Below are positions 16,207 through 17,388 of a stretch of 64,000 nt of DNA, in pieces. Positions within the stretch are counted from its first letter, which is position 1, and each line of letters begins with the position of its first letter. Source of the DNA: Streptomyces camelliae (GTDB taxonomy: Bacteria; Actinomycetota; Actinomycetes; Streptomycetales; Streptomycetaceae); contig NZ_CP115300.1 of the NCBI RefSeq assembly GCF_027625935.1, forward strand, positions 8,060,001 to 8,124,000. Reading direction: 5' to 3'. The position numbers and the translations under genes were made by a program. The notes beneath the pieces were generated by a model. The model made no database searches, was not told the DNA's origin, and saw only the letters and a list, made by a program, of their open reading frames with translations.

Positions 16207-16240
16207 GGGGCCCGGGAGTCGTATCCAGCTCCCGGGCCCC
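16207..16240. terminator. Strong 12-bp-stem terminator hairpin
   Basis: GGGGCCCGGGAG (16207-16218) pairs perfectly with CTCCCGGGCCCC (16229-16240) around a 10-nt loop. It follows the regulator gene and, read on the other strand, sits about 100 bp past the 3' end of the structured RNA, so it could end both transcripts. Confidence 0.75.
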
Positions 16241-16339
16241 TGGGGATGCCACCCAATTGCGCATGCCGGCGGCGTTTAAGAGGACGGATCAGTCATCATG
16301 CCGTCGTGTTCTTCCTTTGAACTACCGCACCGTGGAAGA

Positions 16340-16575
16340 GGTGCAGGCGAGAGTCGAACTCGCATCCGACGGCGTTCGTCCGGCCCCGGTCGATCCGGCG
16401 ATCGGCGGCGATGCTGAGACTGGAGCGAGAGTCTGAGATTGACCGCGGCTGCCTCTGCCATGTTGGGCTACCCCGGCCCGTTGCTCGTGCCGTGCCGGGG
16501 GAAGGACTCGAACCTTCACTGTCACCGCTTCTTCAGGCTGAACTTCAGTGTCAGCTTGCGCTCATCACGCGCACC
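16340..16575 (-). ncRNA. YrlA/Y-RNA-like structured RNA with a circularly permuted tRNA-like module
   Basis: On the minus strand I can fold a tRNA mimic in permuted order. T-arm: stem GAAGG/CCTTC (16501-16505 with 16513-16517) with loop TTCGAGT. Acceptor-like stem: 7 perfect pairs, 16471-16477 with 16494-16500, closed by a 16-nt loop instead of a free CCA end. D-arm: 3-bp stem 16451-16453 with 16466-16468 and a 12-nt loop containing the conserved GG (16458-16459). Anticodon-like stem: 16445-16449 with 16524-16528, followed by a kinked extension, 16413-16422 with 16546-16555 (9 of 10 pairs) and 16408-16412 with 16564-16568. The ends close through GGTGC/GCACC (16571-16575 with 16340-16344), next to a second T-arm-like hairpin (16347-16363). 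Closed acceptor stem and D/T-arm order match the tRNA-mimic domain described for bacterial YrlA Y RNAs. It lies 82 bp downstream of an unknown-function gene on the same strand. No tRNA of normal order fits here. Confidence 0.75.
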
Positions 16576-16656: not shown

Positions 16657-17388
16657 TCAGCCGAGCAGGTAGCCGAACACCGCGTCGCCGACCCGCTGGT
16701 CGGTGATTTCCGCGCCGTTGGCCTCCTCGCGGGCGAACTTCACTGCCTGCTGGAGCTTCTCGACCCGCTCCACCAGCTCGTTCACCCGCCGCGCCGGAAG
16801 CGCTCCGGAGAACTTCACGGTCGTCCAGTACCCGATGGGCACGTCCTCGTAGTACACCTCGACCTGTGCCGGGTGCTTCTCGGTCGCCTCCGCCTTGACA
16901 TGGTTGCGCGGGACCTTCTTGGTACGGATCGTGCGCACCGGGTCCGTCTTCCACCAGTCCGTGGACGGGTCGTGCGACCAGGACTCGGCGGCGTCGAGCG
17001 TGGGGAGCTTCCTGACGAACGTGTGCAGGTCGGTGAGCTGCTTCTCCAGGAAGAGCAGATAGCTGACCGGGACGTCGGTGAGGATCGTCCGGCCGTCGAC
17101 CGTGACGTCCGCGCGGGCCGTGCAGTTCGCCCAGTCCTTGGTGGCGGTCACGTCGAAGAGGCGGGTGAGCGAGGTGGACATCTCGCGCAGCACGTCCTCG
17201 GCCTGCACCTGCACCCGCGTGGACTCGGGCGGGAGCTGCTCGCCCTCCTCGTCCTTCGGCTGGTACGTGCGCGAGATACCGGCCAGCAGCGCCGGCTTCT
17301 GCACCTTGTGGTGCGCCGCGGTGATGTCCTGGAGCGACTTGCTCTTGACACCCTTCTCGACAGCGATGATCTGATTCAGCTTCGCCAT
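16657..17388 (-). CDS. Conserved actinobacterial protein of unknown function (DUF7873-like)
   Basis: A 243-residue soluble protein starting MAKLNQIIAVEKGVKSK. It is well-structured, mixed alpha/beta and rich in charged residues, with memorable blocks AHHKVQKPALLAGISRTY, LTRLFDVTATKDWAN, LLFLEKQLTDLHTFV, RTKKVPRNHV and a C-terminal helix VNELVERVEKLQQAVKFAREE. Proteins of this appearance occur in actinobacteria and actinophages; I know no function. GGGGGAG precedes ATG 17388. It lies 78 bp downstream of NAD kinase and 82 bp upstream of the Y-like RNA, all on the minus strand, so the three may form one transcription unit, and an RNA-related role is worth testing. Confidence 0.8.
   Translation of the reverse strand: MAKLNQIIAVEKGVKSKSLQDITAAHHKVQKPALLAGISRTYQPKDEEGEQLPPESTRVQVQAEDVLREMSTSLTRLFDVTATKDWANCTARADVTVDGRTILTDVPVSYLLFLEKQLTDLHTFVRKLPTLDAAESWSHDPSTDWWKTDPVRTIRTKKVPRNHVKAEATEKHPAQVEVYYEDVPIGYWTTVKFSGALPARRVNELVERVEKLQQAVKFAREEANGAEITDQRVGDAVFGYLLG

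Follow-up and report, generated by a model that had tools for sequence, protein, structure and literature searches.

What kind of RNA lies beside a DUF7873 gene in Streptomyces camelliae, and does it belong with the Ro60-linked Y RNAs that its shape recalls? For this locus, in the 64,000-nucleotide stretch of DNA analysed here (the window), the initial annotation had proposed a Streptomyces Y RNA of ~240 nt, built on a YrlA-like, circularly permuted tRNA mimic, with no Ro gene adjacent. All the helices claimed on the minus strand in 16575-16340 (T, acceptor, D and anticodon-like stems, and an outer extension) are present, and the neighbours of the RNA are indeed DUF7873, an NAD kinase and a PucR-type regulator, Ro being absent beside it. 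The observation is right though incomplete: there are two tandem modules in one longer RNA, since the conserved element extends over ~426 nt (16632-16207) and module B runs past the end coordinate first given (Table 1). The sequence suggests that both modules would be transcribed as parts of a single RNA.

Table 1. Features of the RNA element and the adjacent gene, in positions of the window.
Feature	Position	Strand	Pairing and evidence
DUF7873 (PF25283) gene, 243 aa, upstream of the RNA	16657..17388	minus	Pfam, 409 bits
Whole RNA element, ~426 nt	16632-16207	minus	5' hairpin to terminator-like hairpin; ends inferred; conserved in 30 relatives
G+C-rich 5' hairpin, shortly past the DUF7873 stop codon	16607..16628	minus	conservation and unconstrained fold
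tRNA-like module A	16517-16451	minus	circularly permuted; scanner and covariation
Module A T-arm	16517-16501	minus	5/5 pairs, loop TTCGAGT
Module A acceptor 3' strand	16500-16494	minus	7/7 with 5' strand 16477-16471
Module A acceptor loop	16493-16478	minus	16 nt, between 3' and 5' acceptor strands
Module A acceptor 5' strand	16477-16471	minus	7/7 pairs
Module A D-arm	16468-16451	minus	3/3 pairs, GG in loop
Module A anticodon-like stem	16528-16524 with 16449-16445 (span 16445..16528)	minus	5/5, one G-U
Arm A outer helix	16555-16543 with 16425-16413 (span 16413..16555)	minus	unconstrained fold; extends the anticodon-like stem
Linker motif CUCAGAYUCUCGCUCCAG-UCUCAGC, 3' of module A	16413..16437	minus	conserved; strict pattern in 112/200 DUF7873 loci
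Small hairpin-like conserved stretch CCGGAUCGACCGG between modules	16386..16400	minus	conservation in relatives
tRNA-like module B	16363-16308	minus	circularly permuted; scanner and covariation
Module B T-arm	16363-16347	minus	
Module B acceptor 3' strand	16346-16340	minus	
Module B acceptor loop, 8 nt	16339-16332	minus	
Module B acceptor 5' strand	16331-16325	minus	
Module B D-arm	16322-16308	minus	
Module B anticodon-like stem	16373-16367 with 16306-16300 (span 16300..16373)	minus	7/7 pairs
Arm B outer helix	16381-16377 with 16286-16282 (span 16282..16381)	minus	weaker support
Conserved 3' motif CUUAAACGCC	16271..16280	minus	CTTAAACG in 87/200 DUF7873 loci, 0/18 Ro loci
Strong terminator-like hairpin at the 3' end, without U-run in the S. 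camelliae copy	16207..16240	minus	fold and conservation

Only modules A and B reach the scanner score in the whole window on either strand, and shuffling the 600-nt locus 3,000 times with its dinucleotides preserved never yielded a module at that score. The unconstrained ViennaRNA fold of the 426 nt consists of the 5' hairpin, two long arms and the terminator-like hairpin, the arm tips being the T and acceptor stems of the two modules; the D-arm of B folds as annotated and that of A in a different register. Across 30 Streptomycetaceae DUF7873 loci the elements keep one order, namely hairpin, arm A, the linker CUCAGAYUCUCGCUCCAG, module B, CUUAAACG and the terminator-like hairpin. The modularity of the RNA is evident from three loci (L013, L021 and L029), where the tRNA-like part of A gives way to a short hairpin-like stretch and the core around it persists.

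Covariation across relatives, whose absence had been named as the finding that would count against the structure, was examined in MAFFT alignments of modules picked for diversity (46 of B, 44 of A), and it is present. The proportion of paired cells was 83.0% for module B (59.3% in the control) and 89.8% for module A (67.8% in the control), values that are inflated for the T, acceptor and D stems because the scanner that found the modules demanded those pairs. Changes on both sides were seen in 26 of 28 pairs of B and in 18 of 20 pairs of A. The covariation score reached 0.626 for B, against a shuffled mean of 0.209 and with none of 500 shuffles attaining it, and 0.564 for A, against a shuffled mean of 0.163; controls with slid partners gave 0.195 at most for the two modules. 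As the scanner had demanded paired stems, the test was repeated with modules taken from sequence anchors alone. Their acceptor stems were paired at 97.0% in 66 A modules and at 96.2% in 83 B modules, compared with 63.4% and 58.1% for shuffled partners, and this anchored test together with the shuffles is fairer evidence than the pair percentages of the alignments. On these comparisons the T, acceptor and D stems covary strongly.

The anticodon-like stem was not used by the scanner, and the best register was allowed for real and shuffled partners alike; under these terms it is perfect (5/5) in 76 of 119 distinct A modules (shuffled mean 22, maximum 32) and perfect in 101 of 143 B modules, against ~24 for shuffled partners. 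On fixed alignment columns 58% (A) and 67% (B) of its cells are paired. Support for the outer helix of B is weaker, with 51.8% of cells paired in the B alignment and double changes in all 5 pairs.

At the Rfam gathering threshold neither the window nor any of 10 related loci gave a match, and ARAGORN called neither a tRNA nor a tmRNA in the window. With a relaxed threshold the top two matches in the window are both YrlA, full-length and one per module (31.0 bits, E 8.2e-5; 25.0 bits, E 0.0044); both scores lie below the cut-off of 69 for that family. This failure at the RF02553 cut-off is not decisive, because the Ro-linked Y RNAs of the same genome also fall below it (31.1 and 24.2 bits) and score no better than the window modules. 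Together with the covariation, the resemblance bears out a YrlA-like, circularly permuted tRNA mimic within a structured RNA.

Such matches may also arise from decayed tandem tRNA genes whose halves merely look permuted. The best Rfam YrlA score in the genome, 40.9 bits, belongs to two tandem tRNA-Asn genes (L040:5318-5470, C1:6279317-6279469), which means that neighbouring tRNA genes are able to imitate permuted Y RNAs. For the window RNA this explanation is ruled out by the covariation of the acceptor strands within the permuted unit; moreover, ARAGORN's lack of tRNA calls in the window and the retention of module order across phyla speak against it.

A covariance model of module B and its flanks (R1) was applied to 150 Streptomycetaceae genomes. 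The 93 full-length matches of at least 60.8 bits, spread over 92 genomes, are all located downstream of DUF7873 on the same strand, the cut having been chosen after inspection of the list, where two partial Ro-linked matches stand just under it (60.7 and 60.6 bits). Viewed from the gene, 93 of 94 DUF7873 places have a strong R1 match, the exception being a divergent second copy in one genome (G130). At E 0.01, 149 of the 150 genomes have weaker R1 matches, among them Ro-linked RNAs and the artefact from the tandem tRNA-Asn genes.

A set of 75 DUF7873 loci, in which the near-duplicate viral loci L065, L069, L076, L078, L080 and L088 are counted, contains at least one module in 70 cases and two in 48 (fewer than two in 27). 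A further 131 loci, from which those with identical starts or less than 400 nt of downstream sequence were excluded, have at least one module in 118 cases and two in 85 (fewer than two in 46), whereas shuffled loci gave one module in 2 of 1,500 and two in none of 1,500. Within the 131, at least one module and two modules were found respectively in 23 and 19 of 27 chromosomal loci outside Streptomycetaceae, in 49 and 42 of 49 other chromosomal loci, and in 46 and 24 of 55 viral loci. One or two modules lie 3' of DUF7873 in other actinobacteria, cyanobacteria, acidobacteria, Chloroflexi, myxococci and many phages; loci of Planomonospora, Catenulispora, Calothrix and Ktedonobacterales have two each, and one acidobacterial and two myxococcal MAGs have one each at the scanner score. 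At least 552 genome stretches encode DUF7873, and its pairing with the RNA is near-obligate.

Among the 27 loci outside Streptomycetaceae, two from Herpetosiphon, one from Kofleriaceae and one from Deinococcales show no module at the scanner score, the last of these having an 80-bit R1 match. Neither a scanner match nor an R1 match at E 1 or better was found in the Herpetosiphon loci L146 and L163, in the viral contig L068 or in L089, where the DUF7873 match is partial; L239 has weak R1 matches alone. In L169, L064 and L074 the scanner missed module B or everything, and the model R1 recovered these loci, while a Microcoleus phage (L107) has a doubtful scanner module, yet a 41.9-bit R1 match.

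The strict linker pattern, present in the majority of DUF7873 loci (Table 1), occurs in 0 of 18 Ro loci; the six viral near-duplicates listed above are excluded from the 200 loci behind the motif and acceptor-loop counts and from the module list. DUF7873 is the sole gene family common to 30 compared loci, and as any other neighbour is shared by at most 5 of the 30, no pathway is hinted at by the gene context.

Another reading of so close an association is that the element belongs to the DUF7873 mRNA as a 3' UTR or processing structure, serving its stability or autoregulation by DUF7873, with the tRNA folds acting merely as RNase sites or as protection of the 3' end. The RNA does lie 3' of the gene on the same strand, and across the 150 genomes a median gap of 220 nt separates the module B match from the end of the DUF7873 match. 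However, in Keelan one tRNA gene and a small annotated gene intervene between DUF7873 and the modules, in PA-SR01 the modules start ~600 nt from DUF7873, and the best R1 match of L074 is on the opposite strand; the RNA is moreover large, with conserved motifs also outside the modules. We regard the 3' UTR reading as improbable. The arrangement in L074 is unusual in itself, its best match (L074:9942-10068, minus strand, 102 bits) being opposite in strand to the DUF7873 gene.

The protein is a clear member of its family, matching the Pfam model at 409 bits over 242 of 244 positions (gathering score 27). Its AlphaFold model (mean pLDDT 90.7, pTM 0.75) combines long helices with long beta strands. 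No solved relative was found by sequence search, Foldseek and VIA-align returned no convincing relative for the model, the domain and family libraries name no function, and our literature search found no paper on the family. RNA binding thus draws no support from the protein side, where there is neither a solved relative nor a convincing fold match. The divergent second copy in G130 (C2:60196-60924) scores 195 bits and is perhaps phage-derived.

Is the RNA nevertheless a Ro60-bound Y RNA of the YrlA class that has drifted from its Ro gene, with DUF7873 serving the Ro RNP as an accessory? So far, tRNA mimicry of the YrlA type has been linked to Ro60 (PMC7790460). A TROVE/Ro gene elsewhere in the genome, which the initial annotation had suggested looking for, is found at C1:6982644-6984221, ~1.1 Mb from the window RNA, and tRNA-like Y RNAs of its own sit just upstream of it. 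This stretch (L041:3180-3645, C1:6982179-6982644) holds two tRNA-like Y RNAs, the first of which ARAGORN mistakes for tRNA-Met, and between the two there is perhaps a third of non-tRNA type. The identification as the Streptomyces Y RNA is not supported, given that the Ro gene has its own Y RNAs and the window RNA tracks DUF7873.

Motifs picked by eye from the Ro loci, UACUUC before and AUCUCUGGACA-like after the tRNA-like part, occur in 16 and 14 of the 18 Ro loci and are putative Ro-binding sites; they are rare in DUF7873 loci (4/200 and 15/200). Conversely, the linker and CUUAAACG core motifs of the DUF7873 RNAs are found in none of the 18 Ro loci. R1 aligns over its full length on its strong DUF7873-linked matches and mostly over the tRNA-like part alone near Ro genes.

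By family and protein search, 64 of the 150 genomes have both DUF7873 and Ro, 28 DUF7873 alone, 27 Ro alone and 31 neither, so that Ro is undetected in 28 of 92 DUF7873 genomes and DUF7873 absent from 27 of 91 Ro genomes. Co-occurrence is somewhat above chance (odds ratio 2.6, P 0.006, the genomes not being independent), and this, like the full-length YrlA matches of both modules at scores that the Ro-linked RNAs of the genome do not better, favours a Ro connection, as do a TROVE gene ~5 kb from the DUF7873 locus in Rhizobium phage TM21B and a Ro gene ~2 kb away in G037. The Pfam model, the sole means of detection here, finds TROVE in 5 of 34 DUF7873-bearing viral records; Mimi, Phendrix, NiceHouse, Ziko and Pam2 gave no match. 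The Y RNAs of the Ro gene itself, the rarity of Ro-type flanks and the partial co-occurrence together indicate that the window RNA is YrlA-like in shape and lacks the Ro-linked features of that family. It is independent of Ro and is most likely not a Ro60-linked Y RNA; a divergent Ro60-bound form has little probability. In TM21B, extra matches to the tRNA-like model (L096:10744-10982) just before the TROVE gene (11667) are probably Ro-linked Y RNAs, and this phage may carry both the Ro/Y RNA and the DUF7873/RNA systems.

The DUF7873 pair also occurs in phages. The gene is present in 73 of 50,697 phage records and in 206 IMG/VR stretches, and at least one credible module was found in 11 of 12 phage records examined. 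In Mimi, Phendrix, NiceHouse and TM21B, DUF7873 lies amid tRNA genes, and the unannotated gap after it contains two modules in the first three and one in TM21B. ARAGORN calls three or more tRNAs in 31 of 70 viral loci of at least 9 kb and in 0 of 74 chromosomal loci, though a module can be mistaken for a tRNA in this count. In Klebsiella phage FBKp24 the annotation places a tRNA-Sup-TTA (L105:7018-7097) over the start of module B, which may be a miscall.

The acceptor loops raise a further possibility. NCCA directly 3' of the acceptor 3' strand was found in 99 of 324 modules (55 of 144 A and 44 of 180 B), in a set where the A and B labels come from the D-arm pattern and a few long-loop modules may be spurious; elsewhere in the loops CCA occurs 46 times at 2,552 other positions. 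Counting distinct loops, NCCA is carried by 28 of 142 from chromosomes and by 51 of 119 from viruses; in actinophage Phendrix the loops of both modules have it. U stands immediately before the acceptor 5' strand in 180 of 324 modules, and that strand begins with G in 279 of 324, whereas none of 17 Ro-linked modules of the same bacterial family has NCCA and 12 of the 17 have G at -1. The earlier statement that there is no free CCA holds for the S. camelliae copy, both of whose modules lack NCCA, whereas part of the relatives' modules encode it. NCCA together with U(-1)/G(+1) typifies RNase P substrates, and since some loops carry them, processing by RNase P into a multi-piece RNA is possible.

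Under such a scheme RNase P and 3' enzymes would cut the acceptor loops, so that the RNA would consist of several pieces and bear one or two genuine tRNA-like acceptor ends in the manner of two-piece tmRNA, and the RNP would use CCA-ended, perhaps aminoacylatable arms. A precedent exists in permuted tmRNA genes, whose transcripts are processed into two RNAs (PMC10085705). We nevertheless consider loop cutting unlikely: the majority of modules, including both in the window, lack NCCA, many loops are just 4-8 nt long, and no tmRNA match exists in the window. Acceptor sequences also vary freely, and hence no shared charging identity is visible.

We favour, as the probable explanation, a two-component RNA-protein system composed of a two-headed tRNA-mimic RNA and DUF7873. 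The recurrence of the gene-RNA pair in other bacteria and phages points to an undescribed RNA-protein system, not a stray Y RNA. The RNA would form two long arms, each tipped with a permuted tRNA mimic, with the conserved core between and after them; DUF7873, which probably binds the RNA, would most likely sit on this core to give an RNP. The two mimics would present tRNA-shaped surfaces to modification enzymes, nucleases or maturation enzymes, and it is reasonably likely that they engage factors acting on tRNA, for which the RNP could be a bait, a tether or a decoy. A decoy or anti-nuclease role in particular is conceivable and on the unlikely side. In tRNA-rich phages the likeliest benefit would be the shielding of translation from host tRNA-cutting defences.

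The tRNA-like domain of YrlA has been suggested to compete for an anticodon nuclease (PMC7790460), and jumbo phages are described as countering such attacks with the tRNAs and repair enzymes that they carry (PMC7824862); the placement of the DUF7873 RNA within phage tRNA arrays would fit this competition idea. It is quite possible, if short of probable, that DUF7873 and a bivalent tRNA-mimic RNA form an RNP class not described before and common to phages and bacteria, which captures or neutralises tRNA-directed enzymes such as anticodon nucleases under phage attack or stress, with tRNA-like acceptor maturation in part of the family. The RNA partner offers a handle for finding the function of DUF7873.

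Several known RNAs resemble the element in part. Our literature search found no earlier description of a two-module RNA, the core Y RNA papers, which may mention it, being outside its scope. In tmRNA the D-stem and anticodon-like stem are absent or degenerate. The DUF7873 RNA is like two-piece (permuted) tmRNA in having the acceptor and T-arm first, the D side after and a loop that is possibly cut, but differs in its intact D-stem and anticodon-like stem, its two modules and its lack of a shared acceptor identity; no tmRNA was matched in the window by Rfam covariance models or ARAGORN. GOLLD and ROOL are located near phage tRNA genes, and the DUF7873 RNA similarly is a large structured RNA of tRNA-rich phages, although it has tRNA-like modules and an adjacent protein gene and gives no Rfam match at the gathering threshold in the window and 10 loci. 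Permuted tRNA genes (a class treated in PMC10085705) also place the 3' half before the 5' half with a short linker, whereas the modules here have no anticodon loop of their own, the anticodon-like stem running into the larger RNA. YrlA (RF02553), the partner of Ro60/Rsr, shares the permuted order of T-arm, loop-closed acceptor stem, D-arm and anticodon-like stem. Unlike YrlA, the DUF7873 RNA joins two modules in one RNA with other conserved motifs and often NCCA in the loop, and is encoded with DUF7873 in genomes and phages without detectable Ro. A YrlA-like device thus appears up to twice per RNA, with a non-Ro partner of no recognised fold, in several phyla and many phages.
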